Below are positions 1,894 through 23,131 of a stretch of 30,235 bases of DNA, one piece after another. Below the pieces are notes generated by a model. It saw only the letters and a list, made by a program, of their open reading frames with translations, was not told the origin of the DNA and ran no database searches. Origin of the DNA: a virus. The stretch covers positions 1-30,235 of the IMG/VR virus record IMGVR_UViG_3300038436_000044. One strand, written 5' to 3'. How positions within the stretch are numbered: the stretch's first letter is position 1; the number at the start of each line of letters is the position of its first letter. The translations under genes were made by a program, and so were the position numbers.

Positions 1894-2724
1894 GTGAAGG
1901 ACTTCGGCTCCCTGGCCACGAATTTTATCACGCTCAAAAAATCGGCCGGCGATTTCAAGTCCGGGCTCCCGGACGAGCTCAAGAACGACCCGAGCCTGGC
2001 GCCGATCAAGGACCTTCCCGGCCTGGTCAAATCGTACGTAAACGCCCAGAAGCTCGTGGGCCGCGACAAGATCGCCCTGCCGGGCGAGAACGCGAAGCCC
2101 GAGGAGTGGGCCGAGGTGTGGAAAAGGCTCGGCCGGCCGGAAACTCCCGAGGGGTACAAGCTGGCCAAACCTAGCGACCTGCCCAAGGACTTTCCCTTCC
2201 AGGAGCAAATCATCCAGGGGTTCAGCAAGACGGCCCACGAGCTCGGGCTCACGCCGGCCCAGGTGACGGGCCTTTACAAGTGGTACCTCCAGGGCGAGGT
2301 GGACGCCTGGACCGGCATGCAGCGGGACCAGGCCCAGGGCGTGCAGGCGGCGGAGACGGCACTGCGCAAGGAGTACGGGAGCGCGTACGAGGAGAGAGTG
2401 GACGCGGCGAAAAAGATCCTGGCGCAGTTCGGGAGCCAGGAGCTCCTGCAGCAGCTCGAAACGAGCGGCCTCGGGAATAACCCGCTCCTGGTGAAATTCC
2501 TGGCCAACGTGGCCGGCCAGTTCAGCGAGGACACGCTCAAGGGCATGGGTAAGAGCCGGTTCAATATCAAGACGCCCGAGGAGGCCAGGGCGGACATCGC
2601 CGCACTGAAGGCCGACAAGGCTTTTACCGACGCCTATTTTGATCCGAAGCACCAGGGCCACGAGGAGGCCAAGAAGAAGTACAACGCCCTGTATGCCCAG
2701 GCATACCCGGAGGAGAAAAAATAA
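1894..2724 (+). CDS. Capsid scaffolding protein (body of the gene; see upstream amber codon)
   Basis: A 276-residue, acidic and mostly helical protein. LPDELKNDPSLAPIKDLPGL, followed by KSYVNAQKLVG, is the signature N-terminal motif of podovirus scaffold proteins. GLGNNPLLVKFLANVA and the C-terminal AKKKYNALY helix are also typical. Scaffold proteins shape the procapsid and then leave it. The GTG at 1894 is the first start after the in-frame TAG at 1873. It has no well-spaced ribosome-binding site, whereas the ATG at 1825 has an excellent one, so the ancestral protein was about 299 residues. If the TAG is real, the gene either starts internally, relies on suppression, or is impaired. It lies after the portal as expected, but the capsid gene that normally follows directly is displaced by 5 kb. 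Confidence 0.85.
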   Translation: MKDFGSLATNFITLKKSAGDFKSGLPDELKNDPSLAPIKDLPGLVKSYVNAQKLVGRDKIALPGENAKPEEWAEVWKRLGRPETPEGYKLAKPSDLPKDFPFQEQIIQGFSKTAHELGLTPAQVTGLYKWYLQGEVDAWTGMQRDQAQGVQAAETALRKEYGSAYEERVDAAKKILAQFGSQELLQQLETSGLGNNPLLVKFLANVAGQFSEDTLKGMGKSRFNIKTPEEARADIAALKADKAFTDAYFDPKHQGHEEAKKKYNALYAQAYPEEKK

Positions 2725-2763: not shown

Positions 2764-3282
2764 ATGAAGAAGGTTCTTGGTTCTTGGTTCTTGGTGCTCG
2801 GAGTACTCCTGGCATTCGCAGGCGGGAGCCTGCTCCTACCTGGCCAAGCCTGGGCCACGGACACGGTGACGATCAGCGACTCGGAAAGACCCAAGACGAC
2901 CGCCTGGTCGCGGGGCGTGCGCCTGATCACCATCAATTTTTCGAGCGACGACGGCGCCATCGCCCGGAGCGCGACTTACACCGTCAACGGCGTGGCCGGC
3001 CAGAGCGTGAACGTCACCGGCTCCCTGGTGGGGTTTCATTATACGCCGGATGCCACCAACACGCCCGACGCGGCCGCGGACATCCAGGTCTACAACCATC
3101 TGACCGGCGGGGTAAACCTGCTCTCCGGCCTGTGCGACAACGTCGGGGCCACGGAGACCGACCCGAACCTGGACACTTTCCCGGTGAGATCCCTGATTGA
3201 CGAGACGTTCTATTTTTCGGCCGGATCCCTGGGCACCGGCATCAACGCCGGCGTCTTGACGTTAAAGGTGTGGCTGCCATGA
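2764..3282 (+). CDS. Exported phage beta-domain protein with signal peptide
   Basis: A 172-residue protein. Residues 1-31 are a Sec signal peptide: MKK, a long hydrophobic core, then GQAWA before TD as the likely cleavage site. The mature part has repeated short beta strands. The sequence VNGVAGQSVNVTGSLVGFHY, then TPDATNTPDAAADIQVYNHL and LLSGLCDNVG, resembles a small beta-sandwich protein seen in many phage structural regions (a G-x-L-x-x-x ... P-T-D-x-Y-D-V-x-L pattern). GGAGGG lies seven bases upstream; GTG at 2761 is an alternative start. A signal peptide on a virion-type domain is odd. The hydrophobic core is partly written by three TTCTTGG heptamers. It overlaps the next gene by 4 nt. 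Confidence 0.7.
   Translation: MKKVLGSWFLVLGVLLAFAGGSLLLPGQAWATDTVTISDSERPKTTAWSRGVRLITINFSSDDGAIARSATYTVNGVAGQSVNVTGSLVGFHYTPDATNTPDAAADIQVYNHLTGGVNLLSGLCDNVGATETDPNLDTFPVRSLIDETFYFSAGSLGTGINAGVLTLKVWLP
2774..2794 (+). repeat. Heptamer tandem repeat (TTCTTGG x3) inside a signal-peptide sequence
   Basis: Three perfect tandem copies of TTCTTGG, encoding the LGSWFLVL part of the signal peptide of the gene starting at 2764. Because 7 is not a multiple of 3, the repeat cycles through all three frames and gives a seven-residue hydrophobic period. Such heptamer strings are familiar from intergenic regions of some bacterial genomes; that comparison is from memory. Confidence 0.85.
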
Positions 3283-3467
3283 AGAGGTTAATTTGTGCGA
3301 TCGCGATCTGCGTCTGCCTCGGGGTGGCCGTCGCCGCGGCCAAGGTGCCGCCCTGGATCCTCTTTCCTTTCCCTCTGAAAGACATAGGGGGGGAGTCCCA
3401 CAACAGGATAACGAGAGACGGCGACACCCGGATCACCAGGACCGGCGACACCAGAACGGTAAGGTAA
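3279..3467 (+). CDS. Small exported protein with TR-x-GDTR repeats
   Basis: A 62-residue protein starting at the ATG at 3279, which overlaps the TGA of the previous gene. Residues 1-24, MKRLICAIAICVCLGVAVAA, are a strong signal peptide or membrane anchor. The end of the protein, NRITRDGDTRITRTGDTRTVR in part, contains near-repeats of T-R-x-G-D-T-R. Short proteins ending in this repeat are common in phage late regions, though their role is not known to me; here a signal peptide has been added. Eleven bases separate it from the next gene. No function is assigned beyond probable export. Confidence 0.6.
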   Translation: MKRLICAIAICVCLGVAVAAAKVPPWILFPFPLKDIGGESHNRITRDGDTRITRTGDTRTVR

Positions 3468-3477
3468 GGAGTTCGAC

Positions 3478-4281
3478 ATGAAAAAACTCTTTCTTCTCTT
3501 CGCTCTTTGCTCTTTGCTCTTTGCTTCCCTTGCTTTTGCCGCCGACGTCTACATCGGGAGCCTCACCGAGGACACGAGCCCGGCACTCACGGACAAGATC
3601 GAGACGGAGAAGGCCACGCCGGCGAGCCGGTATCTGCAGCTCCAGACGCTCCTCCAGTTCATAGCGGCCCAGGACGGCACGCCCCGATCTACGGCGCCCA
3701 CGGGCGCGGACCTGATCGCGAACCGCTGTTATGTGGCCGACAACGAGAGCGGAGGGTGGGATCCGAACAACTACACCGGCCCCACCGGATCCGAGACGGT
3801 TGACTATTGGACCTGTTACGACGGATCGAGCTTTTATCCTATCCGCGATACCCTCGGAAATCCGATATGGGCCGGCATCAGCGAGCTCATGCCCTTTTTC
3901 GACGACGACGGCACGGGCTCGATCCGGATCCGCTTCAACACCAGCACGCAACGGGACATCACCATCCCCGGAGACGCGGCCATCACGCTCAGCTACACCG
4001 TGGCGAGCGGAGACATCGCCCTGGCCACGAGCGAGATCGCGAGCGGCGCCTGCACCGCGGCCCAGACGGACACCGCCACCGGGACCGCGACGACAGACGT
4101 GGTTTGGTGGGGGTTTGCCGCTGATCCCACGGCCACCACGGGCTACTCGCCCACGGCCAACGGCATGCTGACGATCATCGCCTATCCTACGAGCGGTAAT
4201 GTCAACTTCAAGGTATGCAACAACACGGGCGCTGCGATCACGCCAGGGACCGTTACGCTGAACTGGAGGGTGGTCAGATGA
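3478..4281 (+). CDS. Exported phage structural-type beta protein
   Basis: A 267-residue protein with a clear signal peptide, MKKLFLLFALCSLLFASLAFA, cut before ADV. The mature start, IGSLTEDTSPALTDKIETE, matches the short N-terminal motif of several phage tail or fibre-associated proteins that bind a virion platform. The C-terminal third, with YSPTANGMLTIIAYPTSGNV, then NFKVCNNTGAAITPG and LNWRVVR, is a beta domain typical of phage tail and fibre ends. The signal-peptide core is encoded by three CTCTTTG heptamers. AGGAGTTCGAC precedes the ATG. Its TGA overlaps the ATG of the next gene. This could be an adhesin released to the host surface or a modified virion protein; the sequence cannot decide. 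Confidence 0.7.
   Translation: MKKLFLLFALCSLLFASLAFAADVYIGSLTEDTSPALTDKIETEKATPASRYLQLQTLLQFIAAQDGTPRSTAPTGADLIANRCYVADNESGGWDPNNYTGPTGSETVDYWTCYDGSSFYPIRDTLGNPIWAGISELMPFFDDDGTGSIRIRFNTSTQRDITIPGDAAITLSYTVASGDIALATSEIASGACTAAQTDTATGTATTDVVWWGFAADPTATTGYSPTANGMLTIIAYPTSGNVNFKVCNNTGAAITPGTVTLNWRVVR
3503..3523 (+). repeat. Heptamer tandem repeat (CTCTTTG x3) inside a signal-peptide sequence
   Basis: Three perfect copies of CTCTTTG encoding ALCSLLFA of the signal peptide of the gene starting at 3478. A degenerate copy (CTCTTCG) precedes it. Unit length equals that of the repeats at 2774 and 4285, but the unit sequence is unrelated. Confidence 0.85.
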
Positions 4282-5039
4282 TGAAGCTCATAGCTCACAG
4301 CTCACAGCTCATAGCAAAATACCTCTTCCTGTCAGCTATCAGCTTTCTTGCTATGAGCTCGCCCTGCTTCGCCCAGGGCGGCATGATGCCAGGGCCGGGA
4401 GTGAAGGGGTACGCAGCAGCCGACGAATGCGCCGGGTACCTTGTCTGCCAGAATTTCGAGGGGACAGGGTACGACCATTCAGAGACATGGACCGAGACGG
4501 CAGACGGCACGGTTGACGAGGATTACACCACAACGGTGCTCAGGGGCTCGCAATCTCTTTACATCAACGACTCTACCGGTACGAACGAGACGAATATTCA
4601 GTTCGGAACAACTAATCCTGTTTATTACTTCTTCCGGTATCGGCCCGTGTCACATTCGGGAAACGACCAGATCATGCGGATGACCACAACCGCGGCAAGC
4701 GCATCCGGGAATCTGCTCCATCTCGATTCAGCCCCCAGTTACCCCCTCAGAGCTTACCACGGCACGATCACAGCAGACGGAACCGTATCTTTGGCGGCAG
4801 GAACTACATATTACATTTGGGGCAAATATCAAGCTGCATCTGGAGGAAGTAATGGAATTCATCAAGTGTGGATTGGCACCTCCGGACTGAAATCAGAGGC
4901 GACGCTCGATATAGACATGAGTACGGGCGACGACACGGACCAGGCAGGCCGGATTTACCTTAACAACAACGGAGTGGGCGAGGGCATCTATGACCAGGTG
5001 CTTGTCAAGTCAACTGAAATAGGAGACGCTCCCCTATGA
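4278..5039 (+). CDS. Exported LamG/concanavalin-type lectin-like protein
   Basis: A 253-residue protein. GGAGGG lies seven bases before the ATG at 4278, which overlaps the preceding TGA. The N-terminus (residues 1-33) is a signal peptide ending SSPCFA before QGG. From about residue 50 the pattern CQNFEGTGYDHSETW, LRGSQSLYI, YYFFRYRP, AGTTYYIWGKYQ and the end YDQVLVKSTEIGDAP is that of a LamG/concanavalin A-like jelly-roll: the opening F-E strand and the closing D-x-V-x-V-K strand are both present. Such domains bind carbohydrates. The DNA here appears more AT-rich than the flanking genes. The predicted role is sugar binding outside the cytoplasm, as inference. Confidence 0.65.
   Translation: MMKLIAHSSQLIAKYLFLSAISFLAMSSPCFAQGGMMPGPGVKGYAAADECAGYLVCQNFEGTGYDHSETWTETADGTVDEDYTTTVLRGSQSLYINDSTGTNETNIQFGTTNPVYYFFRYRPVSHSGNDQIMRMTTTAASASGNLLHLDSAPSYPLRAYHGTITADGTVSLAAGTTYYIWGKYQAASGGSNGIHQVWIGTSGLKSEATLDIDMSTGDDTDQAGRIYLNNNGVGEGIYDQVLVKSTEIGDAPL
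4285..4312 (+). repeat. Heptamer tandem repeat (AGCTCAY x4) inside a signal-peptide sequence
   Basis: Four tandem copies of AGCTCAT/AGCTCAC encode KLIAHSSQLIA at the N-terminus of the gene starting at 4278. The end, AGCTCATAGC (4306-4315), has an exact inverted partner, GCTATGAGCT, at 4350-4359, giving a 10-bp-arm inverted repeat within the same signal-peptide region. Confidence 0.85.
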
Positions 5040-7654
5040 AAAGACTCCTGGCGTGGCTTTGTGTTTACATGCTCCTGCTTCAGCCCCTTGTGGCGGGTGC
5101 GGCGACATTCAACGCCGTCACATGCGGCCTGGATGATGTCCGCGACGCCGTGAGCGCGGCCGAGGCGGCAGGTTACGGCCACACGGTGAGCGTGCCCGCA
5201 GGCAACTGTACGTGGACGCCGAATCCAAAAACCGACGCGTTGACCATCACCAAGTACATGACCCTCCAGGGCGCCGGCATGGATGGGACTGGAACGAATA
5301 TAACGCAGGGCATCAACAGCACGTTTTACGGGTTGATAAGGTACACCCCGGATCAAACCTCCAGGGACGCCGAGGACCTGAGAGGCGGGCTGTTTAGGGT
5401 GACCGGGTTCGAGTTCGACGGCACTTCTCCGGTGGGAGAAAACTATCTGATCACCAGCAGGGGGATCGTGCTCAGTTCGAATGCCACCGACAAGTATTAC
5501 TACAATATCCGCGTGGATCATTGCTCGTTTTATAACTTCAACAACTACTGGAACACCCCCGACCACACGAGCAACGACCCGGTTTACTACGGTTACGGCC
5601 TTCATCTCGAAGGGCTTTTCTTCGGGGTGATGGATAACTGTTACCATAATTTCTCGAGAGGCATGAACGCCTATGCCATCGGTGGCCAGAATGCGGGCTA
5701 CGGCTGGATAAGGGCGCCCGTCGAGCTCGGCTCAGAGCACGCCTTTTTCATCGAGGATTGCGAGTTCGACAATTTCTTCCGCATCGTGGGATCAGGACAC
5801 GGCGGGAGATACGTGCTCAGGTTCAACCGATCGCATGACGTGCAGACGACGAGCGACGTGCACAGCAACGTGTGGTCGGATATGCACGGCAACTTTCAAC
5901 GGTGCTGCTTTCTGACCCCCACGCCCGCTTTTTTCCCGGAAACGCCCACCGGCCAGGTGCGCGGCACGGTGCTCTCGGAAGGATATTGCAACAAGATCGA
6001 CGATGCACCGGCCACCACGGCGACCAGGTCGCACTTGTGGGGACATCGAGGCGGAATAAGCGTGTTTTGGGGAAACCTTATCGACATTCCCCGGAACGCC
6101 CGGGTGTGGATCAGCGAGGAGGACGCGCTCTATTACTTCAAGACCGTACCCACGGTTGTGAATTATGGCGGCATCAATTACATGGCAAAGGTGGACCATG
6201 TGGCCGACAACGACAACAAGCCACCAAACGCCACTTACTGGACCACCGCAATAAATCAGAATCAGCGGGTTTACCCCTGGACTCTTGGAGCGCACTACAA
6301 GAACAACCATGGCTATGACCCGGTGCGAGATTCTTACTATTGGCTCAATTCCAACGTGAACGCGAGCGGGAGCTATTCTGTAAACGTCAACAACATGTGC
6401 TCCACGGGCCTTGACGGTTTAGAGTACTGCTCCGGCAGTTACATTCAGGAGAACCGCGACTGGTGGCAGGAAAAAACCTCTTTCGCCGGCTCCTCCGGCG
6501 TGGGTGTTGGCACCAGGGCGCAGATGGACGCGATCACGCCGACCGCCCCGGGCGTGGGTTTCTTTGTGCAGAACGAGGGGACATGGAACACCAGCGCGGG
6601 CACGAGCGGCCGGCACAATCCTCTCGGCTACACCGGCCAGGGAAGACTCTACCGCTCGGTGAGCAACGGCCAGGGCGGGTACCAGTGGCAGCTCTATTAC
6701 GAGCCGTACACATACCCGCACCCGCTCCGGAACGAGGGCGGCACGCCTCCGGAACCCGAGTGTGACGCGAGCCACCTGTATCTATGCACCGAGAGCGGTC
6801 CCTGCATTGCAGCCGGCGGGTACTGGTGGGGCACGCCTGCGCAGTGCAACGCCACGCCAGAACCCACGTGCTCCACGGATCCGGACTATTGCGCGGATGA
6901 GGCGACGTGCACCGCGGCCGGCTGGCATTACTATGACGGCGATTGCCACGCGGACCCGGCGCCCTCGTGCGCGGCGCCGTACTATGAGCAATGCACCGAC
7001 GGCCCGAGCTGCACGGCCATCGGCGGAGTGTGGCAGGAAGAGAGCGGCGCCGCAGATCCGCAGATCCCCGCGGCCCTCGATTACAGCGCCGGCGGGTGGG
7101 CTCCTGTAGGCGCCGTGGACCTGGTCGACGCCGTGAACGAGCCAACCGCGGACGACGATGCGAGCTATACGGCCACCACGGGCACGGAGACCCTGAGATA
7201 CCTGTATTCCCGGGCCACCACGATCGGAACGGCATCAAGCGTAGTGGTGACGATCCGGACCAGGAACACCACGGGCGCCGGCACCATGCGGGCTCACCTC
7301 CGCCTGGCCGGCTCGAATTACTATGGGACCACGTTTGACGTGGGAACGGGATACCAGGATTACGTCACCATCTGGACATATAACCCGAGGACCATGCAGG
7401 CCTGGACCCCGGACGACTTGAACGGCCTGGGCGACAATTACCTGCACTCCTACGGCCTGAATCCCGTCACCGTGAGCGGAGAGGTCCGTGTCACGGCCGT
7501 GAAGATCACCCCCCAGGGGACAAGGTATGCATGTGCGGCGCCGGACGATCCTCCGGATCCGCCGGCTACATCAGCGGGCATCATCCAGCCCTGGGCCGGG
7601 AGCACGCCGTCGCAGTACAACGCCGGCGGCGGAGTGGCAATGCCGGCCTATTGA
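5036..7654 (+). CDS. Large exported beta-helix protein with Cys-rich repeats
   Basis: An 872-residue protein whose ATG overlaps the previous TGA. Residues 1-23 are a signal peptide ending GAA before TF. Residues ~25-330 look like a right-handed parallel beta-helix (pectate-lyase-like), with LRGGLFRVTGFEFDG, YNIRVDHCSFYNF, MDNCYHNFSRGMNA and FFIEDCEFDNF as successive coils. Residues ~576-672 hold three cysteine-rich repeats of the form C-x4-C-T-x-x-G/A-x-x-G-x-W with a fourth Cys. Residues ~680-835 form a beta-sandwich with DDDASYTATTGTETLRYLY and the NPRTMQAWTPDDLNGL motif common in phage-associated extracellular proteins. The tail is Pro/Gly-rich. The fold suggests a tail-spike-like glycan binder or depolymerase, but the signal peptide argues for export from the producing cell. 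Catalytic residues cannot be assigned by eye. Confidence 0.7.
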   Translation: MKRLLAWLCVYMLLLQPLVAGAATFNAVTCGLDDVRDAVSAAEAAGYGHTVSVPAGNCTWTPNPKTDALTITKYMTLQGAGMDGTGTNITQGINSTFYGLIRYTPDQTSRDAEDLRGGLFRVTGFEFDGTSPVGENYLITSRGIVLSSNATDKYYYNIRVDHCSFYNFNNYWNTPDHTSNDPVYYGYGLHLEGLFFGVMDNCYHNFSRGMNAYAIGGQNAGYGWIRAPVELGSEHAFFIEDCEFDNFFRIVGSGHGGRYVLRFNRSHDVQTTSDVHSNVWSDMHGNFQRCCFLTPTPAFFPETPTGQVRGTVLSEGYCNKIDDAPATTATRSHLWGHRGGISVFWGNLIDIPRNARVWISEEDALYYFKTVPTVVNYGGINYMAKVDHVADNDNKPPNATYWTTAINQNQRVYPWTLGAHYKNNHGYDPVRDSYYWLNSNVNASGSYSVNVNNMCSTGLDGLEYCSGSYIQENRDWWQEKTSFAGSSGVGVGTRAQMDAITPTAPGVGFFVQNEGTWNTSAGTSGRHNPLGYTGQGRLYRSVSNGQGGYQWQLYYEPYTYPHPLRNEGGTPPEPECDASHLYLCTESGPCIAAGGYWWGTPAQCNATPEPTCSTDPDYCADEATCTAAGWHYYDGDCHADPAPSCAAPYYEQCTDGPSCTAIGGVWQEESGAADPQIPAALDYSAGGWAPVGAVDLVDAVNEPTADDDASYTATTGTETLRYLYSRATTIGTASSVVVTIRTRNTTGAGTMRAHLRLAGSNYYGTTFDVGTGYQDYVTIWTYNPRTMQAWTPDDLNGLGDNYLHSYGLNPVTVSGEVRVTAVKITPQGTRYACAAPDDPPDPPATSAGIIQPWAGSTPSQYNAGGGVAMPAY

Positions 7655-7822: not shown

Positions 7823-8692
7823 ATGAGCTTTGAAATCACAACCGCTTTTGTAAAGCAGTACGGCGACAACATCGAGGTGATGTCGCAGCAGAAGGGCTCC
7901 AAGCTCCGATCGTCCGTAGGCCTCAAGACGGGCATTCGCGGCAAGGAGTATTTTCACGACCAGGTGGCCGCTACCGCAGCCCGCAAGAGAACCAATCGCC
8001 ACGCCGACACCCCGCTCATTTCCACGCCGCACCGCAGGAGGAAACTTTTCCTGTATGATTTCGACTGGGCGGACCTGATCGACGATCTCGACAAGGTAAA
8101 GATGCTCGCCGACCCGACGAGCCCGTATGCCATCAACGCGGCGTACGCCATGGGCCGGAGCATGGACGACGAGATCATCGCGTGCGCCAACGCCACGGCC
8201 TACACGGGCGTGGACGGCGCGACCTCCACGCCCTTCGACACGACCAACAATCAGATTCTCCACGGCTCCGTCGGCATGAGCGTGGCCAAGCTCCTGCTCA
8301 CGAAACGGAAACTTGACGTGAGCGAGGACACGGAGACCAAGCGGCACATCCTGGTTTCAGCGGCGGAAGTGGCCGATCTCCTGAACGAGGCCGAGGTTAA
8401 GAGCGCGGACTACAACACCGTGAAGGCCCTGGCAATGGGCCAGATCAATACCTTCATCGGCTTCGATTTCCACCAGACCGAGCGGCTTTCCTACAGCTCT
8501 TCGACCGGGATCAGGCTCTGCCTGGCCTGGATCGAGGACGGGATCCTGCTCGGGATCGGCGTTGACATCGAGGCCGTGATCAGCCGCAGGGCCGACAAGA
8601 ACAACGCATACCAGCCCTATTACAAGATGTCGATCGGCGCCACGAGAACCGACGAGCGCAAGGTGGTGGAGATCGGCACGTACCACGCTTAA
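7823..8692 (+). CDS. Major capsid protein
   Basis: A 289-residue protein with no signal peptide, started at an ATG after AAAGGAGGAACCGTAAC. It begins MSFEITTAFVKQYGDNIEVM and carries QQKGSKLR, a middle RRRKLFLYDFDWADLIDD, AYAMGRSMDDEIIACAN and the C-terminal YYKMSIGATRTDERKVVEI. These are hallmark stretches of the ~300-residue capsid protein family of temperate podoviruses (HK97-like fold, Phage_capsid_2-type). It forms the icosahedral shell built around the scaffold. A strong hairpin after the stop codon agrees with capsid genes being transcribed at high level and then attenuated. The unusual feature is the 5 kb separating it from the scaffold gene. Confidence 0.88.
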   Translation: MSFEITTAFVKQYGDNIEVMSQQKGSKLRSSVGLKTGIRGKEYFHDQVAATAARKRTNRHADTPLISTPHRRRKLFLYDFDWADLIDDLDKVKMLADPTSPYAINAAYAMGRSMDDEIIACANATAYTGVDGATSTPFDTTNNQILHGSVGMSVAKLLLTKRKLDVSEDTETKRHILVSAAEVADLLNEAEVKSADYNTVKALAMGQINTFIGFDFHQTERLSYSSSTGIRLCLAWIEDGILLGIGVDIEAVISRRADKNNAYQPYYKMSIGATRTDERKVVEIGTYHA

Positions 8693-9230: not shown

Positions 9231-9911
9231 ATGTGGATCATTAGGGGCATAGCAGGCCGGGGCGAGGCCCCGGCCTGTGCCGGCACCCGCAACGGCGCGG
9301 CTGTGGTGATGGGGACGGCCAGGTGCGTGTGGGACGATATTGCACGATGTAGGAGCAAGCTCCTGCTTGCGACAGATCGCGGCCAGGAGGCCGCTCCTAC
9401 GGGGACCAGGTTCAAGGTGATCGCCATTAACGGCATGGTGCTCTTTTACCCTGGCCGGATCCATCACGCGGTTTCCATGCACCCGGCCGAGCTCGGGCAC
9501 TGGCAGAAACTCCGGGAGATCTACGGCGACCGGGATCCGAGCACATTTCTCACTCATTCCTACCGCAGGCCCGAGGAGGGCGGACCACCCGACGTGGTTT
9601 GGGACATCCAGGGCGCGATCGCCGGCACGTCCGGGCTCCTGGCCGTCATGGTCGGGCTCGCCCTGGGCTACCAGAGGATCATTCTATGCGGCGTGCCTCT
9701 CGACGGGAGCGGCCACGTGTACGACGATCCGGAGACGATAACGAGGCAATTCACACAGGAGTGGCTCGCCATGGAATGGGCCAAGGCGGGCAAGCAGTAT
9801 TTCGACGACAGGGTCCGGAGCATGTCGGGAAACACCCGGGCATGGTTCGGGGAGCCCACAAAGGAGTGGCTGCATGGATCTCTACAGCAAGGAGCAACAG
9901 GAGAAGTTTGA
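9231..9911 (+). CDS. Rossmann-like phage protein (MptE/DUF115-like or sialyltransferase-like) carrying a REPIN-like insert
   Basis: A 226-residue protein of a family found in phage structural regions. The opening strand AVVMGTARCVWDDIARC, then FKVIAINGMVLFYPG, HHAVSMHPAELGHWQKLRE, TSGLLAVMVGLALGYQRIILCGVPLDGSGH and an HVYDDPE end suggest a Rossmann-like sugar- or nucleotide-binding fold of the DUF115/MptE or sialyltransferase type. The exact family is unsure. Between DDIARC and RFKVIAIN lies an in-frame segment, SKLLLATDRGQEAAPT, encoded by a 52-bp palindromic repeat (9349-9400) that does not belong to the family. A GC hairpin (9253-9277) lies near the N-terminus. The start at 9231 has a weak ribosome-binding site. 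It overlaps the methyltransferase by 38 nt, so the two probably act together, for example on virion or cell-surface modification. Confidence 0.6.
   Translation: MWIIRGIAGRGEAPACAGTRNGAAVVMGTARCVWDDIARCRSKLLLATDRGQEAAPTGTRFKVIAINGMVLFYPGRIHHAVSMHPAELGHWQKLREIYGDRDPSTFLTHSYRRPEEGGPPDVVWDIQGAIAGTSGLLAVMVGLALGYQRIILCGVPLDGSGHVYDDPETITRQFTQEWLAMEWAKAGKQYFDDRVRSMSGNTRAWFGEPTKEWLHGSLQQGATGEV
9253..9277 (+). repeat. GC-rich hairpin near the start of the Rossmann-like gene
   Basis: A perfect 11-bp inverted repeat, CAGGCCGGGGC / GCCCCGGCCTG, with a 3-nt GAG loop. It lies within codons 8-16 of the gene as called, or between genes if the true start is further downstream. No U-tract follows. It may act on translation or be a second dispersed repeat. 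Confidence 0.6.
9349..9400 (+). repeat. REPIN-like inverted pair of REP elements, in frame within a gene
   Basis: Two 24-nt REP-like units face each other, 9349-9372 and 9377-9400 (the latter on the minus strand), separated by CAGA. Both begin GTAGGAGC and end GCGA. They differ at the stem positions, AAGC...GCTT against GGCC...GGCC, that is by compensatory changes that keep each hairpin. The GTAGGAGCGGCCTCC type is a known chromosomal REP family mobilised by RAYT transposases. Here it is read through as coding sequence without breaking the frame. Confidence 0.85.
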
Positions 9912-10461
9912 AAAAGTCTGGGATCCGGAGGGCGAGGGCAGGTACCGCCTGGGATCCCCGGGCCACCGCCTGGTGAAGGTTTTCACGGAATATGCGCCGG
10001 CCGGGTGCGTGGTCAACGACTACGGCGCCGGAACGGGCAGGGCGGCCGTGGCCCTGGCAAGGGCGGGCTACAGGGTGAACATGGTGGACATCGCCACAAA
10101 CGCCCTGGAGGAGGAGGCCCTGGAGTTCGTGAAAAAGGGCATGCTCACCTGGACGCACGCGAGCCTGTGGGAGCTCCCCATGAGATTCCCCAAGGCCGAT
10201 TGGGGGTTTTGCATCGATGTCCTTATGACCCTGCCGCCCGAGCGGGCCACCCAGGCGCTTTCCGAGATCAGGAGGACTTGCAGCAACCTCTTTGTGCAGG
10301 TGGACAACTGGTCGGATCCCAGGCTCGGCATGGAGATGCACCCCGTACGGATGGACGCCGAGCACTGGCAGGCCGGGCTCCTGGTTTACTGGCCGGAGGT
10401 GACCCGAATCGCGAGCGTCGAGGATTCGAGGCGGTACATATTCGTATGCAGGAGGGGATAA
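9874..10461 (+). CDS. SAM-dependent methyltransferase
   Basis: A 195-residue class I methyltransferase. Residues 46-55, VVNDYGAGTG, form motif I (the SAM-binding glycine loop). VNMVDIA places the acidic residue at the end of the second strand (D72), and WGFCIDVLMTLPPE (about residues 110-125) matches motif IV/post-IV. The substrate is unknown; the lack of an N/D-PP-Y/W motif argues against a DNA amino-methyltransferase, and the small size fits a sugar or small-molecule methylase. It starts inside the preceding Rossmann-like gene and ends immediately before the tail tube A gene (TAA ATG). The pair lies between capsid and tail tube genes, where T7 has none. Confidence 0.8.
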   Translation: MDLYSKEQQEKFEKVWDPEGEGRYRLGSPGHRLVKVFTEYAPAGCVVNDYGAGTGRAAVALARAGYRVNMVDIATNALEEEALEFVKKGMLTWTHASLWELPMRFPKADWGFCIDVLMTLPPERATQALSEIRRTCSNLFVQVDNWSDPRLGMEMHPVRMDAEHWQAGLLVYWPEVTRIASVEDSRRYIFVCRRG

Positions 10462-11023: not shown

Positions 11024-13528
11024 ATGGCCAAGGCTTCCCCGATCATCAACAGCTTCAATGCCGGCGAGCTCTCCCCCAGGATGGCCGCCAAGGTGGACTT
11101 TGCCAAGTATCAGAACGGGTGCGAAAGGCTCGAGAATTTCGTGCTCTTTCCGCACGGAGGGGCCTGCTTTCGGCCCGGCAGCTATTTTGTCAGCGAGGTG
11201 AAGGATTCGAGCAAGAAGGTCCGCCTGGTGCGTTTCGTGTTCAGCGTGGTGCAGGCCTACGTGCTCGAGTTCGGCAACCAATATATCAGGGTCTACAAGG
11301 ACCGGGGCCAGGTACAGAGCGGCGGGAGCGCGTACGAGATCGCCAGCCCCTACCTGGAGGCCCACCTCCAGGGGCTCAAGTTCGCCCAGAGCGCGGACGT
11401 GCTCTATATCTTTCACGCGAGCTATGCGCCCCGCAAGCTGACCAGGACCGGGCACACGGCCTGGACCCTCACGACCATCAATTTCACTCCGCCGCCCGTG
11501 AGCGAGCTGGACGTTTTTCCTGCCGCGACCCTCACGCCCGGAGCCACAACCGGGAGCGGAGTGACCTTCACCGCGGGATCCGCCTATTTCCAGACCGGCG
11601 ACATCGATCGGCAGATTATTTCCGGAGCGAGCCGAGCCGTGATCAAGAGCGTGCCGAGCTCGCCCGGGACTCAGTGCGTGGCGGACATCCTGGACGCCTT
11701 TTCGTCCACGTCCCCGATCGCCTCGGGCTCGTGGAGCCTCCGGGGCAGCCCCACGGGGTTTATCTCGCCGGACAAGATGGAGCCCAAAGGGGCGAGCGTC
11801 TCCATCACGGCGACGGGCGGCGTGAACGTGAGATCAAGTCTTTATAAGTGGGATCTCACCGGCGCGGGCACGGCGGAGTATATGTGCATGCTCGCCGACG
11901 GCTCCGAGGCGGGCCTTTCCGAGCCGAGCTCGGTCATCATCAACGGCGCCATCGCCACCAAGGCGGCTCCCGGCTCCCTGGCCGCCGGACAGTGGGGCTG
12001 GGGCAGTTTCGGTTTCAGCGGCCAGTATAAAAGGCTTGTCGTGCGCCTGGCGGACGACACTGATCCGGACGGCAAGGCCGACGGCTACATCTTCACCGGC
12101 GCGACCGGAGCGGCCACAAGGCACGTGTTCCGTGCGGCCGACGTGGGCAAATACATCCGGGCGCACAACGGCACGATCAAGCTCACGGCTTTTACGAGCG
12201 CCGTCCACGTTACCGGGGAGATCATCGAGCCTCTCGACGCGGTCGATGCCACCGAGAGCTGGACCCTCGAAAGCCCGGCCTGGAGCTCCGCCCTGGGCTA
12301 CCCCAGGGCGGGCTGTTTCTACGAGAGCCGGCTGTGGCTCGCCCGGGATGTCTGGGAGTGGGGGAGCGTTGTGGAGGACTTCGAGAACTTCGCCATGTCC
12401 GACCGGGACGACGCCGCAGTCTCGCGGCCCCTGCTCGCGAACGAAGTGAACGAGGTCATGTGGCTGGCCCACGGGAAGGTCCTCATGGCCGGCACCGTGG
12501 GCGGCGAGTGGGCCATGAAGACGGGCGCCCTGGATGAACCCATCACGCCGGCTAATCTCCTTCCCAAGCGAAAGACCACGCACGGGTGCGCGGATGTCCC
12601 CCCGATCGTGATCAACGAGAGCATCCTCTTTGTGCAGCGTGCCGGCCGCAAGCTGCGCGAGCTCGCGTATCGCTACGAGTCTGACGGTTTCATCGCCCCG
12701 GATCTCACAATCCTGGCCGAGCACATCACCGCCGGCGGGATCATCGACATGGCTTACCAGGAGGAACCCAACGGCGTGCTGTGGACCGTGCGCGGCGACG
12801 GCGTGCTCCTCGGGCTTACCTACGACAGGCTGCACGACGTGGTCGGCTGGCACCGCCACCCCATGGAAGGAGAAGTGGAATCCGTCGCGGTGATCCCGGG
12901 ACCCGGCGACGAGGACGAGCTCTGGCTCAGCGTCAAGCGCACCATCAACGGCGCGGTGAAGCGCTACATCGAGTATCTCAAGCCCTTCTCCTGGGGCAGC
13001 GACCAGGAGGACTGTTTTTTCCTGGACTGCGGGCTCACGTACGACGGGGCGCCCGCCACCACGATAAGCGGCCTGGAACACCTTGAGGGCAAGAGCGTGG
13101 GGATCCTGGCCGATGGAGCAGTGCACCCGGACCGCACGGTCGCAAGCGGCGAGATCACGCTCGCCAGGAGCGCGGGCACCGTGCACGTGGGCCTGAAATA
13201 CACGGGCGTGCTTCTTTCCATGGACCTCGAAGCGGGCAGCGCGACAGGCACGAGCCAGGGCAAGCTCAAGCGGATCCACAAGGCCAGGGTGCGCTTTCTC
13301 CACACCCTGGGCGGCAAGGTGGGAAGCGATTTAACCAGGCTGGAGACAGTTTACTACCGCACCAGCGCGGATCCCATGGACGCACCGCCGCCGCTTTTCA
13401 CGGGCGACAAGGAAGTCACATTCCCGAAAGGATGGGACCACAAGGCGCAGGTGATGATCGTGCAGGACCAGCCGTTACCTATGACCGTTCTGGGTATCAT
13501 GCCGGAGATGAGTACGAGCGATGAGTAA
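11024..13528 (+). CDS. Tail tubular protein B (gp12-like nozzle)
   Basis: An 834-residue protein. The N-terminus, SPIINSFNAGELSPRMAAKVDFAKYQNGCERLENFVLFPHGG, is the signature of the gp12-like nozzle/stabiliser family (F-N-x-G-E-L-S-P-R-x-x-x-R-x-D). This is followed by FRPGSYFV, LEFGNQYIRVYKDRG and FAQSADVLYIFHASYAPRKLTR. The middle has WGSVVEDFENFAMSDRDDAAVSRPL and the C-terminal half a beta-propeller-like pattern with WHRHPMEGEVESVAVIPGPGDEDELWLSVKR. It forms the tail nozzle that seals DNA until infection. It is somewhat longer than T7 gp12 and close to the size in temperate podoviruses. Confidence 0.9.
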   Translation: MAKASPIINSFNAGELSPRMAAKVDFAKYQNGCERLENFVLFPHGGACFRPGSYFVSEVKDSSKKVRLVRFVFSVVQAYVLEFGNQYIRVYKDRGQVQSGGSAYEIASPYLEAHLQGLKFAQSADVLYIFHASYAPRKLTRTGHTAWTLTTINFTPPPVSELDVFPAATLTPGATTGSGVTFTAGSAYFQTGDIDRQIISGASRAVIKSVPSSPGTQCVADILDAFSSTSPIASGSWSLRGSPTGFISPDKMEPKGASVSITATGGVNVRSSLYKWDLTGAGTAEYMCMLADGSEAGLSEPSSVIINGAIATKAAPGSLAAGQWGWGSFGFSGQYKRLVVRLADDTDPDGKADGYIFTGATGAATRHVFRAADVGKYIRAHNGTIKLTAFTSAVHVTGEIIEPLDAVDATESWTLESPAWSSALGYPRAGCFYESRLWLARDVWEWGSVVEDFENFAMSDRDDAAVSRPLLANEVNEVMWLAHGKVLMAGTVGGEWAMKTGALDEPITPANLLPKRKTTHGCADVPPIVINESILFVQRAGRKLRELAYRYESDGFIAPDLTILAEHITAGGIIDMAYQEEPNGVLWTVRGDGVLLGLTYDRLHDVVGWHRHPMEGEVESVAVIPGPGDEDELWLSVKRTINGAVKRYIEYLKPFSWGSDQEDCFFLDCGLTYDGAPATTISGLEHLEGKSVGILADGAVHPDRTVASGEITLARSAGTVHVGLKYTGVLLSMDLEAGSATGTSQGKLKRIHKARVRFLHTLGGKVGSDLTRLETVYYRTSADPMDAPPPLFTGDKEVTFPKGWDHKAQVMIVQDQPLPMTVLGIMPEMSTSDE

Positions 13529-13533
13529 GAAAT

Positions 13534-13607
13534 GCCACGAAGACACGAAGAAGAGAAAATTGATTCTTCTAAAATCAAGATACTTTGTGTCTTAGTGCCT
13601 TGGTGGC
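13534..13607 (+). repeat. Host-type dispersed repeat in the tube B / gp13 gap
   Basis: GCCACGAAGACACGAAG (13534-13550) is followed about 30 bases later by CTTTGTGTCTTAGTGCC...GGTGGC (13583-13607), an imperfect inverted copy. This pair, CACGAAG / CTTTGTGTCTTCGTGGC, is a well-known type of intergenic element in several bacterial phyla. It fills nearly all of the 98-base gap between the nozzle gene and the gp13-like gene. No coding content is seen. Confidence 0.65.
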
Positions 13608-13626
13608 GAAAAACTTGAGACGAGCG

Positions 13627-14073
13627 ATGGTTAGCGATGTGGTGAGATTCGATGTCAAGCACTTCCAGGCCCTGGAGTTCAACCCCAACCCTGGCAGCCG
13701 GGCGTTTTTCCGCTTGCCGAACCAGCGCGAGCTCCTGGCCACCGCGGCGAGACACCCGAGCTACACGCTCATGATCAATGACCGGGTCGTGGCGTGCGCC
13801 GGCGTGGTCGTGCTGTGGCCGGGCGTGGGAGAAGCCTGGGCCTTTGTCTCGAAAGATATTTCGTCTTGCAAGGTATGTTTTTTCCGTGCCGCCCTGGAAG
13901 TGCTTTCCCGGATCGAGCGGGATCAGCAGCTCCACCGCGTGCAGGCCGTGGTGCACGAGGATCACCCGGCAGGGCAGCGTTTTGCGTGGCACCTGGGGTT
14001 CAGGCCCGAGGGGGAGCTCCACAGGTACGGCTCGGACAAGAGCAACTTCATCATGTACGCGAGGTTATGCTGA
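13627..14073 (+). CDS. gp13-like protein with GNAT-like fold
   Basis: A 148-residue protein. RHPSYTLMINDRVVACAGVVVLWPGVGEAWAFVS, then VQAVVHEDHPAGQRFAWHLGFRPEGELHRYG, gives the strand-helix pattern of GNAT acetyltransferase-like proteins: a core strand with a glycine, then the G-F-R-x-E-G end. It also matches the T7 gene 13 type (DUF2833), encoded at the same point between nozzle and internal virion genes, where it helps virion assembly. Catalytic activity is doubtful because a clear acetyl-CoA loop is not seen. The ATG at 13627 was chosen over a TTG at 13585 that lies within the dispersed repeat. The stop overlaps the next ATG. Confidence 0.75.
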   Translation: MVSDVVRFDVKHFQALEFNPNPGSRAFFRLPNQRELLATAARHPSYTLMINDRVVACAGVVVLWPGVGEAWAFVSKDISSCKVCFFRAALEVLSRIERDQQLHRVQAVVHEDHPAGQRFAWHLGFRPEGELHRYGSDKSNFIMYARLC

Positions 14074-14594
14074 TGGCATGGGCAGCGTTAGTAATGATGG
14101 CAGCCGGCACCATGATGCAGGCGTTCGGCCAGGTCCAGGCCGGTAAGGCGGCGCAGCAGGCCGGCGACTTTAACGCGGGAGTGGACCGCAACCAGGCCGT
14201 GGCCGCCAGGGGCCGGGCGGCTTTCGAGGCAAGGAAGCAGCGCGACATGACCCGCAAGCTCCTGGCCACGCAGCGGGCTAAATTCGGCGTGGCCGGCGTG
14301 GGCTTCGAGGGGAGCCCGCTGCTCGTCATGGAAGAGACGGCCAAGGAGGCGGAGCTCGACGCGAGAGCCATCGAGTACGGCGGCGAGATGGAGGCCGTGG
14401 GGCTCGAATCGCGTGCGCTCCTCTCGGAGTGGGAAGGCAGGACGGCCAAGAAAGCGGCCAGGACGCAGGCCTTTACGAGCCTGCTCGGTGGAGCGTCCAA
14501 GATGATGGGAGCTTACGGCGCCGGCACGCCCATGATCAGCGGATCATCCGCCGGCGACGTCACCAGGTACAATCAGCTCATGAGGGTGAAATAA
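14073..14594 (+). CDS. Internal virion protein (gp14-like)
   Basis: A 173-residue protein rich in Ala, Gly and charged residues. An N-terminal hydrophobic segment, MAWAALVMMAAGTMMQAFG, is followed by QAGKAAQQAGDFNAGV, a long helix and LLATQRAKFGVAGVGFEGSPLLVM, the core motif of small internal virion proteins of podoviruses (Q-R-A-x-F-G-x-A-G-V ... G-S-P). In T7 the counterpart, gp14, is ejected into the outer membrane. GAGG lies eight bases before the ATG at 14073, which overlaps the previous TGA; ATG 14067 is an alternative. It ends with TAA overlapping the next ATG. Confidence 0.8.
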   Translation: MAWAALVMMAAGTMMQAFGQVQAGKAAQQAGDFNAGVDRNQAVAARGRAAFEARKQRDMTRKLLATQRAKFGVAGVGFEGSPLLVMEETAKEAELDARAIEYGGEMEAVGLESRALLSEWEGRTAKKAARTQAFTSLLGGASKMMGAYGAGTPMISGSSAGDVTRYNQLMRVK

Positions 14595-16132
14595 TGGAAG
14601 TACCTACCTATCAGAGACGCGTCGGGATCCCGGGCTCCGTGCCCTACGGCCGGGCGAGCCTGGGAATTGCGACGGCCCAGGGCGAGGCGGTCTCACAGCT
14701 CGGCGCCGTGGTGAGCGCGGAAGCGGAGCGGCACCTCGAAGCGAGAAGAGTGAACGAGCTCAGCCAGCGGACGCTCGACGCGGTGAAAGAGCTGGACGAG
14801 CTGGACCGCTGGGCCGAGAACGAACCGGCCTTCGAATCCATCGTGCCGGGCTACGAGGAGAAGCTGCGCGAGCTCCGGAACAAGCAGCGGGAGATCACGG
14901 ACCCGGCGGTCAAGAACCTTTACGCCAGGCAGTTCGAGCAGCTCGCTATCCGGGGCCTGTCGAAAGCCAAGGACGTGGCCAGGAAAAAAGAGATCACCCA
15001 TAACCAGAGCATGGTGCAGGTGAGACTCAACGAGTACTCCGACATGATCGGCGCGGCAGGCGATTTTCAGAAGGCGGCGGAATACATGAAGTTCGCCCAG
15101 GTGGAGATCGCCGGCGCGGTGGCCGCAGGCACCATCGACGAGCTCCAGGCCGTGAACATGGAAAAGCAGTTCAGGGACCGGACCCTTGTGAGCTTCGTCC
15201 GCCGCGACATGCTCAATCATCCGAAGGAGACTTATCTCAATCTCGAGGCGGGCAAATACGAGGGCCTCGACGAGATTGAAAAGACCGGGCTCCTGAAGGA
15301 GGCCAAGAGCATGACAGAGGCCTTCGAGGCAAGAGAGATAGCCGACGCGGAAAGAATCGACCGGCATGCCCGTCAGGCCCTCAAGGACCGGCAGGAGGAA
15401 GTGTACGGCGAGCTGCTGGTCATGAAGAGCAACGGCCAGCTCAACGAGCCCATCGTGCAGATCCTGATCCGGAACCGCCGGCTCGATCCGGACAAGGCCA
15501 AGGTGCTCCTCGACGAGCTGAGGGCCGAGGCCAGGGGCGAGAAAACCTTGAACGATCCCATGTTCGTCGGGGATCTCGCATCGAGGATCGAGCTCGGGGA
15601 GGACGTGAGCGAATCATTGGCGGCGGGGGTAAAAAGCGGCAGGATCAAAACGGAAACCTATATCGCCCTCCAGAAACAGCAGTCGGACCGCGATTATCAG
15701 CGCGGGAGCTCCTACATCAATTATGCGCTCAAGCCGTCGGAAGCGGATCAGTGGACTCCGGACAAGCACATCCGCCACGCCGAGGCCGTGGACGAGTACT
15801 CTTCCCGGGTTGCGGCAGGCGAGGCGCCCATGGCAGTGGCCAGGAACATCGTGGACCGGCATACCGACGAAGTGCGCCGCACGTTCCGGGGCCTGCCTGC
15901 TCCCAGGTTCCTCACGGGCGACAAGCGGAACAGGCAGGATTTGAACGCGGCCCGCGAGAAAACCGTGCAGGCCTTCAGGAAAGGGTTGCTCACGGAGGAG
16001 GAATTCAACCGGGAAGCCGAGCGGCTGGAGCAGCTCATCAATCTCGTGACAAAAATGGAAGAGCAGAAAAACAGGGATATCGAGGACGGTGAAAGCGACC
16101 GCCTGAAGCAAGCGCGGGAGAAGAATAAATGA
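14594..16132 (+). CDS. Internal virion protein (gp15-position)
   Basis: A 512-residue, highly charged, mostly helical protein starting MEVPTYQRRVGIPGSVPYG. Long helices such as HLEARRVNELSQRTLDAVKE and RELRNKQREITDPAVKNLYAR follow, then a repetitive helical region with LEAGKYEGLDEIEKTGLLKEAKS. LNLEAGKYEGLDE is a motif I associate with gp15-like core proteins that line the ejection channel. It lacks any enzyme motif. It overlaps both neighbours by ATGA/TAATG junctions and sits between gp14-like and gp16-like genes as in T7. The family assignment rests mainly on synteny. Confidence 0.72.
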   Translation: MEVPTYQRRVGIPGSVPYGRASLGIATAQGEAVSQLGAVVSAEAERHLEARRVNELSQRTLDAVKELDELDRWAENEPAFESIVPGYEEKLRELRNKQREITDPAVKNLYARQFEQLAIRGLSKAKDVARKKEITHNQSMVQVRLNEYSDMIGAAGDFQKAAEYMKFAQVEIAGAVAAGTIDELQAVNMEKQFRDRTLVSFVRRDMLNHPKETYLNLEAGKYEGLDEIEKTGLLKEAKSMTEAFEAREIADAERIDRHARQALKDRQEEVYGELLVMKSNGQLNEPIVQILIRNRRLDPDKAKVLLDELRAEARGEKTLNDPMFVGDLASRIELGEDVSESLAAGVKSGRIKTETYIALQKQQSDRDYQRGSSYINYALKPSEADQWTPDKHIRHAEAVDEYSSRVAAGEAPMAVARNIVDRHTDEVRRTFRGLPAPRFLTGDKRNRQDLNAAREKTVQAFRKGLLTEEEFNREAERLEQLINLVTKMEEQKNRDIEDGESDRLKQAREKNK

Positions 16133-20329: not shown

Positions 20330-20902
20330 ATGCTGCAATGGCCCGTACTCGATCAGATCAGGAAGGCCGTCTTCGGAGAGAAGGGAGTCTTTGGATCCGT
20401 AACCGATTTCGTCAACACCCGCTGGCCGCCCGACATGACCCCGCAGCAGAAGGCGGAAATAGAAAAAGCGCTCCGGGATTTCGAGGCGCAGCAGGAAGAG
20501 CGCCGGCAGAATTTCGCCATGACCATGGAGGCCCTCACCAACCAGGCGGAGGCGCAATTCAACGAGCGGACAAAAGAGCTCGAGGGCACGGCCGAGGACC
20601 TCAAGACGATCCCCATCCTCGGGCACATGATCATCTTCGTGCGGGGAGCGCTCCGGCCGGCCTGGTGCGTGGCTGCCATGTATTTCGACTGGCAGATCTT
20701 CACCGGCGCCTGGGGCGCCAAGCTCGTGGCAGTGGATCCCGGAGGCGGAGTCCGGATCACGCCCGAGGGATTCATTCTTATCATCATCAATTTTTTGGTC
20801 CTGGGTTTTATCTTCGGCGAGCGCACGCTCCGCAATGTGGTGCCGGCGATGCTCCCGATCGTTGAGCTCATCTGGGGCAGGAGACAGGAGGCGAACAAAT
20901 GA
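20330..20902 (+). CDS. 3-TM holin, GTA-holin type
   Basis: A 190-residue protein behind AAGGAGGGAAGAGCC. Residues ~20-85 are a charged helical region (MTPQQKAEIEKALRDFEAQQ). A hydrophobic stretch at ~95-120 (HMIIFVRGALRPAWCVAAMYF) and a further membrane helix, FILIIINFLVLGFIFGERTL, follow. The R-P-x-W motif after the first helix and the G-E-R-T/R-T-x-x-K-like end are the marks of the 3-TM holin family that releases gene-transfer agents and many phages. It would open the inner membrane to let out the M23 enzyme. It overlaps the fibre gene by 4 nt. Confidence 0.75.
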   Translation: MLQWPVLDQIRKAVFGEKGVFGSVTDFVNTRWPPDMTPQQKAEIEKALRDFEAQQEERRQNFAMTMEALTNQAEAQFNERTKELEGTAEDLKTIPILGHMIIFVRGALRPAWCVAAMYFDWQIFTGAWGAKLVAVDPGGGVRITPEGFILIIINFLVLGFIFGERTLRNVVPAMLPIVELIWGRRQEANK

Positions 20903-22194
20903 CAGTACCATCGAGCGCGGCGCGAAACGAGTATGTGTGCGACGGGAGCCAGGTTGTTTTTCCCTACACCTTTAAGATCCTGGTCGAGGGCCATCTCCGG
21001 GTGATCCTCCGCGACTCCGGAGGGGCCGAGACGGTGCTCACCCTCACCACGGATTACACCGTGAGCGGCGTGGGCGCGGCCGGCGGCGGCAACGTGACCA
21101 CTGTGGCCACTTATTCGAGCGACCACCGGCTCGTGATCCTCCGCGATGTCACGGTGGAGCAGGGCACGGACTACGTGGAGAACGACTCCTTTCCAGCCCA
21201 GAGCCACGAGGACGCCCTGGACAAGCTCACCATGATCGTTCAGAGCCTCAAGGAGGAGCTCGGCCGGTGCCTCAAGGTCCCGAGGAGTTCGCTTCTGTCC
21301 GGAGCGAGTCTCGAGCTCAACGCATCGGCGGACCGCGTGCTCGGCTGGAACGCCTCCGAGAACGCACTCACCAACATCGCGGCGACGCTCCTCACCGTGA
21401 CCGACTTCGCGAACCTTTACACCGACTACGCAAACGACCTGGCCGCGGCCGTGCTGGCCATCGGCTCGGCCGGCAAGACGATTGTGGTGGACCGCGACAC
21501 CACAGTGAGCGAGCACCTCACGGTCCCCGACAACATCACGCTTCTGATCATAAACGGGGCCTGGATCAGCGTCGCCGCCGGCAAGGTCCTGACGATCTAC
21601 TCGCCGGCGCACGTGATTGCTCCCTTGTCCAAGCGCATTTTTATCGGATCCGGATCCGTGGCGTTTTACACCGCCTATGGCTTCAGGAGTGAGCTATGGG
21701 ACGCCACAGGCGCCGCCGTGGTGCCGGGCCTCATTAAGGTGAGCGACCCCACCGAAGACGAGCACGCTCTCAACAGGCAGACGGGCGACGGCCGGTATGA
21801 CCGGCTCCCGACCCTCTACACCGCCAAGGTGACAGGGTTCGGGAACATAAGCAGCGCCAACGTGGAAGTGCTCGAGCTCAACGTGGGGACCGTCGCGGAG
21901 GATCAGAAGCTGCTTATCAGCTTCTACTTCGAAGGTTACAAGGATACCGACGGTTATGTCGATATCGGCTTCGTGAAGAAAAGCGGCACCAGCGGCAACA
22001 TCAAGGTGGGCCAGGATATGAGCTCCACCCTTAACCGCTATTGGGCAAAAACCGGGTACGATTTCGTAATGGCAGGCTCAATCATGGCCAGGGCGGGCTC
22101 GGCCGGCACGCTCGTGCTCAAAATGAGCGTGGGGTGCGTTGTGGGCGGATACGTCTCCGGAACCAGGATTGAGATGTCCGTGCACAAATTCTAG
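20899..22194 (+). CDS. Tail fibre with T7-type N-terminal domain
   Basis: A 431-residue protein. Residues 1-125, NEYVCDGSQVVFPYTFKILV, LTTDYTVSGVGAAGGGNVTT, LVILRDVTVEQGTDYVEND and FPAQSHEDALDKLTMIVQSL, match the T7 tail-fibre N-terminal domain that docks on the nozzle. A mid-region has short beta repeats and a neck, and the last ~150 residues, ending VSGTRIEMSVHKF, are a beta-rich receptor-binding or trimerisation domain. No catalytic motif is visible. It stops with TAG at 22192. Its last 117 bases are also read on the other strand by the end of a small immunity-operon gene. It is short for a fibre; the large beta-helix protein at 5036 may complement it in glycan recognition. Confidence 0.85.
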   Translation: MTVPSSAARNEYVCDGSQVVFPYTFKILVEGHLRVILRDSGGAETVLTLTTDYTVSGVGAAGGGNVTTVATYSSDHRLVILRDVTVEQGTDYVENDSFPAQSHEDALDKLTMIVQSLKEELGRCLKVPRSSLLSGASLELNASADRVLGWNASENALTNIAATLLTVTDFANLYTDYANDLAAAVLAIGSAGKTIVVDRDTTVSEHLTVPDNITLLIINGAWISVAAGKVLTIYSPAHVIAPLSKRIFIGSGSVAFYTAYGFRSELWDATGAAVVPGLIKVSDPTEDEHALNRQTGDGRYDRLPTLYTAKVTGFGNISSANVEVLELNVGTVAEDQKLLISFYFEGYKDTDGYVDIGFVKKSGTSGNIKVGQDMSSTLNRYWAKTGYDFVMAGSIMARAGSAGTLVLKMSVGCVVGGYVSGTRIEMSVHKF

Positions 22195-22924: not shown

Positions 22925-23131
22925 TCAAAGGACTCCCATGGCCTTGTAACGGACGACAAGGGCTTTCGCCCACGCCGCGAGATTCCGAGGCTTGGGGCAG
23001 ACCTCCAGGGGCTGCAATGTGTCGATCCGGCGCCCGGCGGTTTTATACCCGAGGGTGCAGTCCATGACCCCGATCCGGCGATTGAACTGCATGGCGTGAC
23101 AACCCCGGCAGGATTTCTTCATCCGATCCAT
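22925..23131 (-). CDS. Small Cys-containing protein, 68 aa
   Basis: A 68-residue basic protein, MDRMKKSCRGCHAMQFNRRI and on, with C-x2-C at C8/C11, another Cys at C25 (VMDCTLGY) and one at C45 (EVCPKPR). Four spaced cysteines suggest a metal-binding, ferredoxin-like or zinc-knuckle protein. Its ATG overlaps the repressor stop codon (TGATG), so it is co-translated with the repressor. Similar short proteins (C-x2-C ... C-x3-G-Y ... C-x-K-P) are recurrent in phage genomes. Role unknown. Confidence 0.65.
   Translation of the reverse strand: MDRMKKSCRGCHAMQFNRRIGVMDCTLGYKTAGRRIDTLQPLEVCPKPRNLAAWAKALVVRYKAMGVL

Follow-up and report, generated by a model that had tools for sequence, protein, structure and literature searches.

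Predicted exported, fibre-type proteins encoded between the scaffold and capsid genes of a podovirus fragment

By the usual view, tailed phages assemble their virions entirely inside the cytoplasm. What, then, are five consecutive genes with predicted signal peptides doing between the scaffold-like and capsid genes of a podovirus? The question is posed by the IMG/VR record IMGVR_UViG_3300038436_000044, a podovirus fragment that we analysed over its full length of 30,235 bases (the window), in which five close or overlapping open reading frames (ORFs) on the + strand, P1 to P5, occupy positions 2764-7654. A preliminary description, made from the sequence alone, had taken their products for proteins exported by the infected or lysogenic cell, and the locus for a candidate undescribed system. 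Here, we find that P3, P4 and P5 belong to a three-gene set, A-B-C, shared by dozens of further uncultured phages. The set is very probably exported and fibre-type in nature, and we weigh below whether its products end up on virions or stay outside them.

Signal peptides and a recurring three-gene set

All five predicted products pass a simple signal-peptide rule, as the preliminary description had claimed: each N-terminus is positively charged, with a hydrophobic stretch and a credible cleavage site for signal peptidase, while none of the adjacent capsid, portal, scaffold and main tail genes passes. The background of the rule is low, with 4 of 69 ORFs passing in deposited-phage segments and 22 of 357 among distant genes on related contigs. 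In the A-B-C proteins of other loci (fetched loci carry L numbers), the predicted cleavage sites are of the AxA↓Q type, some B genes have signals of the twin-arginine translocation (Tat) type (L025 and L113, and by eye L147), and a few genes of the set have lipobox-like signals. Because these Tat-type and lipobox-like signals replace Sec ones, it is export that appears to be conserved, and not one particular hydrophobic segment. Together with the cysteine (Cys) parity described below, the signal peptides and Tat variants indicate proteins built for export, much as had been proposed, and for the set as a whole export is probably real. That the signal peptides are chance products of a loose rule was considered and rejected on the control rates, the Cys parity and the Tat variants.

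A search with P3 returned 53 relatives in IMG/VR, essentially all of them through its last ~100 residues (domain A), and a profile search of IMG/VR with this domain gave 121 stretches, 80 of which were kept. The non-redundant domain A ORFs numbered 88 in the first count and 92 after further scans. Seventy-five of the 88 pass the signal-peptide rule; most of the others are truncated at contig ends, contain gaps, or show on inspection by eye a signal peptide that the rule missed. An exported B lies next to A in 75 of 87 cases, mostly at an offset of -4, that is, with a four-base ATGA overlap, and an exported C follows A-B in 50 of 87. The B proteins are further marked by a P[GA]PG motif 5-8 residues past the predicted cleavage site (45 of 74 non-redundant proteins, or 48 at any offset), compared with 49 of 1970 control N-termini. 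The window matches this pattern in every part: P3 is an A with the Cys pair, P4 an exported, ATGA-overlapping B in which the motif, within QGGMMPGPG, has the modal offset, five, and P5 a large exported C, likewise joined to P4 by an ATGA overlap.

P3-P4-P5 is thus the conserved unit, and P1 and P2 are local. No relatives of either were found among the fetched loci, a statement that covers those loci and not whole databases, and the TRxGDTR repeats that had been noticed in P2, which are genuine, have no match in any of them. Accordingly, of the five-gene order that the preliminary description had proposed to look for in other phages, only the last three genes are shown to recur. The A-B-C set there neighbours terminase, portal, capsid, tail and endolysin genes of many families, which indicates that it moves among late regions.

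The cassette matches no described family that was tested, and the expectation of an undescribed system held up in this respect. The operon is widespread, its proteins are fibre-type and carry export signals, and its defining domain matched none of 50,697 deposited phage records at E ≤ 1e-3. The searchable literature, which leaves out most subscription papers, yielded only sporadic single phage genes with signal peptides. One of the four background passes mentioned above is a gene of Rhodoferax phage P26218 (L153:4724-5233, corresponding to KP792623 15489-15998), predicted to be exported and located close 3' of the tail-fibre gene; it is probably the one SignalP-positive gene reported for that genome (PMC4657236). 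It has no relatives in other deposited phages, and, P26218 being a cultured phage, it offers a laboratory handle. The esterase gp40 of Xanthomonas phage PBR31 is likewise exported; it resembles tail-associated hydrolases and has been read as a lysis aid (PMC10975493). Both cases are like the present set in that an exported protein is encoded near fibre or lysis genes, but they are single genes with no conserved A-B-C operon.

Kinship with tail fibres and paired cysteines

In an AlphaFold2 model of P3, residues 171-267 are predicted with confidence (predicted local distance difference test, pLDDT, of about 95). The best PDB matches of domain A are tailspike tips (Pam1, phi297 and Klebsiella depolymerases) and H-type lectins, with E values of 0.07 or worse and probabilities that are mostly high; 20 matches at E ≤ 0.001 were obtained against viral models, and there is no sequence match in the PDB. 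The tail-type domain first guessed for P3 has therefore become a tailspike/H-type-lectin-like end. H-type lectins such as Helix pomatia agglutinin and discoidin II share the fold of domain A, but they are animal or amoebal proteins without a sequence match to it. The LamG domain guessed for P4 fared less well, as P4 itself has no Pfam match; genes in its position in relatives, however, do hold LamG and other lectin domains. Indeed, the B proteins of the set include Laminin_G_3, glycine-rich, ArabFuran and F5/8C domains, and the C proteins beta-helix, fucosidase, GDSL and BNR domains. The mature part of P1 is predicted to be a small beta-type protein. P5 has no sequence relatives in viral contigs or deposited phages, and its single-sequence model is unusable (mean pLDDT 31); as read from the sequence, it may comprise a beta-helix with Cys repeats.

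Kinship with tail fibres is clearest at the N-terminus. Just past its signal peptide, the A protein of L134 aligns with the fibres of P26218 and ctfPj964 from their second residue onwards (MATLLPEGKQ.. and VATLLPNGKQ..); neither of these fibres has a signal peptide. In L134 and L093, the exported fibres are flanked by internal-virion-type genes on one side and lysis genes on the other (roles assigned partly by eye), which is also where the fibre gene of P26218 lies. The window also carries an ordinary gp17-type fibre gene without a signal peptide (20899-22194, + strand), residues 176-286 of which recur in an exported fibre of L093 (3765-5765). In P3, a fibre-like motif at the N-terminus was seen by eye alone, with no PHROG match. 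The premise that virion-type proteins come without signal peptides does not hold for these relatives, which are tail fibres with a signal peptide placed before a normal fibre N-terminus, in the fibre slot; being exported therefore need not exclude being a virion component. Podophage fibres and tailspikes (fibre AKA60329 of P26218; the spikes of Pam1, phi297 and Klebsiella phages) share with the set the mature N-terminal domain seen in L134, the C-terminal trimer-tip/receptor-binding fold and the slot before the lysis genes. They differ in having no signal peptide, whereas the A-B-C proteins are predicted to be exported, are Cys-paired, and have B and C as exported partners.

The cysteines of the set point in the same direction. 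Among mature proteins with two or more Cys, the count is even in 71 of 77 A, 53 of 62 B and 29 of 41 C proteins, compared with 244 of 412 other ORFs, and the Cys content is 1.6-1.8% in set proteins versus 0.8% in other genes. The two Cys of domain A are conserved in 52 of 53 and 53 of 53 sequences, and Cys192 and Cys247 of P3 align with them. Nearly all A proteins with a signal peptide keep both, whereas all six A proteins without one (L101, L114, L117, L135, L144 and L151) lack both. In five of these six loci a signal peptide is missing from the next gene as well, as judged by eye, and in L151 it begins directly with MLSCLPWPGPG; the next gene of L144 has a lipobox-type signal. Fisher's test on hand-rounded counts, with sequences treated as independent, gives 1e-7 for this association, which we regard as suggestive. 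Taken together, the conserved signal peptides, the fibre kinship, the even Cys numbers and the loss of Cys from versions without a signal peptide make it most likely that proteins of the P3-P5 type bind glycans, are of fibre type, and are exported and disulfide-bonded.

The same observations bear on a simpler explanation, namely that these are ordinary virion proteins with hydrophobic N-termini that mimic signal peptides without serving in export. Known tailed-phage virion proteins do assemble in the cytoplasm, and the evidence for export is sequence-based. Nevertheless, mimicry would leave unexplained the even Cys numbers and doubled Cys content, the cleavage-site type, the Tat-type and lipobox-like variants, the disappearance of Cys along with the signal peptide, and a fixed motif directly past the cleavage site, and we find it highly improbable.

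Possible sites of action of the exported proteins

The explanation that best covers the whole, and to which we would give an even chance, is that the A-B-C products are glycan-binding, fibre-type proteins that are exported through the host Sec machinery (Tat in some relatives), disulfide-bonded, and loaded onto virions at lysis. A, B and C would be translated as a coupled late operon, as their ATGA overlaps and position suggest. Signal peptidase would then remove the N-terminal peptide, exposing an xxPGPG sequence on B, and the proteins would fold and form disulfides in the periplasm, in line with the Cys parity and with the association of Cys with signal peptides. At lysis, the mature proteins would join progeny virions as receptor-binding fibres or depolymerases, a step suggested by the fibre N-termini, the fibre slot and the existence of versions without signal peptides. 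In the window virus, the set would be additional to the ordinary gp17-type fibre. A tentative extension, which we hold to be possible rather than probable, is that many uncultured tailed phages secrete fibres through Sec or Tat, disulfide-bond them in the periplasm and load them at lysis by means of a PGPG docking peptide, three of the genes here being in addition phase-variable.

Several points weigh against loading onto virions, and some of them against export as well. Export, cleavage and virion attachment are predictions from sequence; the signal peptides were called throughout by our rule and not by SignalP; and no precedent for tailed-phage fibres maturing in the periplasm was found in the literature within our reach. 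The link between Cys and signal peptides has one clear exception, L102, with a signal peptide yet no Cys pair, and L147 is ambiguous. On the tree, two changes suffice for this link and a single clade is not rejected; many independent origins are not claimed, since the tree is compatible with one. The window virus already has a normal fibre gene. Finally, the single match of domain A in 11.3 million GTDB genome contigs, in a Bryobacterales metagenome-assembled genome, belongs to a complete A-B-C set among chromosomal genes (L062:5029-11735), and is the strongest argument that the set could work without a virion. No phage genes were recognised near this copy, and trp genes were seen by eye further along the contig; it is possibly a case of domestication. 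It is also the only copy that came of the proposal to look for the cassette in bacterial chromosomes outside prophages.

In a rival reading, close to that of the preliminary description, the exported, disulfide-bonded proteins are at no stage part of the virion. They would remain on the surface of the infected or lysogenic cell or be released from it, and serve as adhesins, as lectins that mask receptors or act as decoys, or as enzymes that degrade the matrix. Superinfection might thereby be prevented, progeny kept away from debris, or the biofilm opened up. All members are predicted to be exported, the B and C modules are lectin or glycan-active domains, and a few signals are lipobox-like; the chromosomal copy and the separate normal fibre also fit. 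T5 Llp, a small receptor-masking phage lipoprotein, is a known phage protein exported to the cell surface as the decoy version proposes, although it is not a fibre with a lectin-like tip. A purely secreted role, however, does not account for an A protein that starts with the N-terminal domain of a tail fibre and occupies the fibre slot, or for the versions without signal peptides in other phages, and it sits poorly with one match among so many genome contigs. We therefore treat it as a live rival, if a somewhat unlikely one, and favour the view that the mature proteins end on virions. A bacterial adhesin family was excluded, there being only one genome match to domain A.

The insertion of the genes between scaffold and capsid here, and at other sites in other phages, would also suit a moron cassette, that is, host-derived secreted proteins acquired by the phage as cargo with no role in infection. 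As domain A is virtually restricted to phages and has a phage-spike-type fold, and as the A-B-C order is kept across diverse phages, we give this explanation little credence.

The set thus suggests one of two things: that virions mature partly outside the cytoplasm, or that phages secrete a large class of lectins and glycan enzymes. On either reading, environmental phages are to be viewed differently as regards receptor binding, superinfection and their "auxiliary" carbohydrate genes, and caution is called for before such genes are labelled as host-type secreted enzymes.

Heptamer repeats and genomic setting

Within the window, Tandem Repeats Finder detects tandem arrays of at least three copies only as three different heptamers, all of them within signal-peptide codons, in P1, P3 and P4 (Table 1). 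Shuffled sequence contains no such arrays, and no further exact three-copy heptamer array occurs in 963 kb of related loci plus the window. Because the unit is not a multiple of three, a change by one unit shifts the frame, and in both alternative frames a stop codon follows after 12-133 codons. We speculate that slippage in these arrays might switch P1, P3 and P4 on and off. Neisseria opa genes phase-vary through CTCTT repeats in their leader codons, and the arrays described here are likewise short tandem repeats in signal-peptide codons with a unit that is not a multiple of three; they differ in being heptamers of 3-4 copies, in a phage, and known from sequence alone. No near-identical relative of the window virus was found for a comparison of the repeats. 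(GGTTCTT)3 is common in viral contigs, with 4 of 119 matches at signal-peptide-like starts; from this figure and the lack of another array in the 963 kb, heptamer arrays were rejected as a general builder of phage signal peptides.

Table 1. Features of the insert and its flanking genes (window coordinates)
Feature	Positions	Strand	Remarks
Scaffold/protease-like gene, left flank	1894-2724	+	phrog_3742, phrog_458
P1, predicted exported, 172-173 aa	2764-3282	+	Alternative GTG start at 2761
(GGTTCTT)3.4 array, P1 signal-peptide codons	2772-2795	+	
P2, predicted exported peptide, ~62-65 aa	3270-3467	+	TRxGDTR repeats; ATG at 3279
P3 (gene A), predicted exported, fibre-type, 267 aa	3478-4281	+	4 Cys in mature part
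(CTCTTTG)4.3 array, P3 signal-peptide codons	3496-3525	+	
Domain A of P3, residues 166-267	3973-4278	+	Conserved Cys192 and Cys247; tailspike-tip/H-type-lectin-like fold
P4 (gene B), predicted exported	4278-5039	+	Start at 4278 or 4281; 2 Cys in mature part
(AGCTCAC)4.4 array, imperfect, P4 signal-peptide codons	4285-4315	+	
PGPG motif of gene B, P4 residues 38-41	4389-4400	+	Offset of five from predicted cleavage site
P5 (gene C), predicted exported, 872 aa	5036-7654	+	22 Cys in mature part
Cys-rich repeat region of P5, residues 576-659	6761-7012	+	
Major capsid protein gene, right flank	7823-8692	+	PF19821

The window holds a podovirus gene set comprising portal, scaffold-like, capsid, tail, internal virion and gp17-type fibre genes, with a phage primase gene at its right end. 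In the capsid protein it shares 54% identity with Pelagibacter phage HTVC035P and 43% with spring-water podophages. The interruption between scaffold and capsid genes, to which attention had already been drawn, has no counterpart in the relatives compared: in Vibrio phage 1.182.O, spring-water phage ct3Et533 and the IMG/VR relatives L002 and L003 the capsid gene comes directly after the scaffold gene, and in HTVC010P a single small ORF lies between the two genes.

Other genes of the window were noted in passing. A helix-turn-helix repressor-like ORF, judged by eye, lies at 23131-23688 (- strand), and near it 24272-24769 (- strand) encodes a sixth predicted exported protein, which has no NCBIfam match and is possibly a lysogeny-expressed surface or exclusion gene. 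Two genes follow the capsid gene on its 3' side, at 9231-9911 and 9874-10461 (+ strand). The product of the first is kept in L002 and L003 and has no PHROG or Pfam match, and the second is methyltransferase-like. In L002, a capsid relative of the window virus, the C-terminus of the protein encoded at 12559-14037 resembles by eye a variable lectin of the diversity-generating retroelement type, and a possible reverse transcriptase ORF, also identified by eye, lies 3' of it at 14354-15412.

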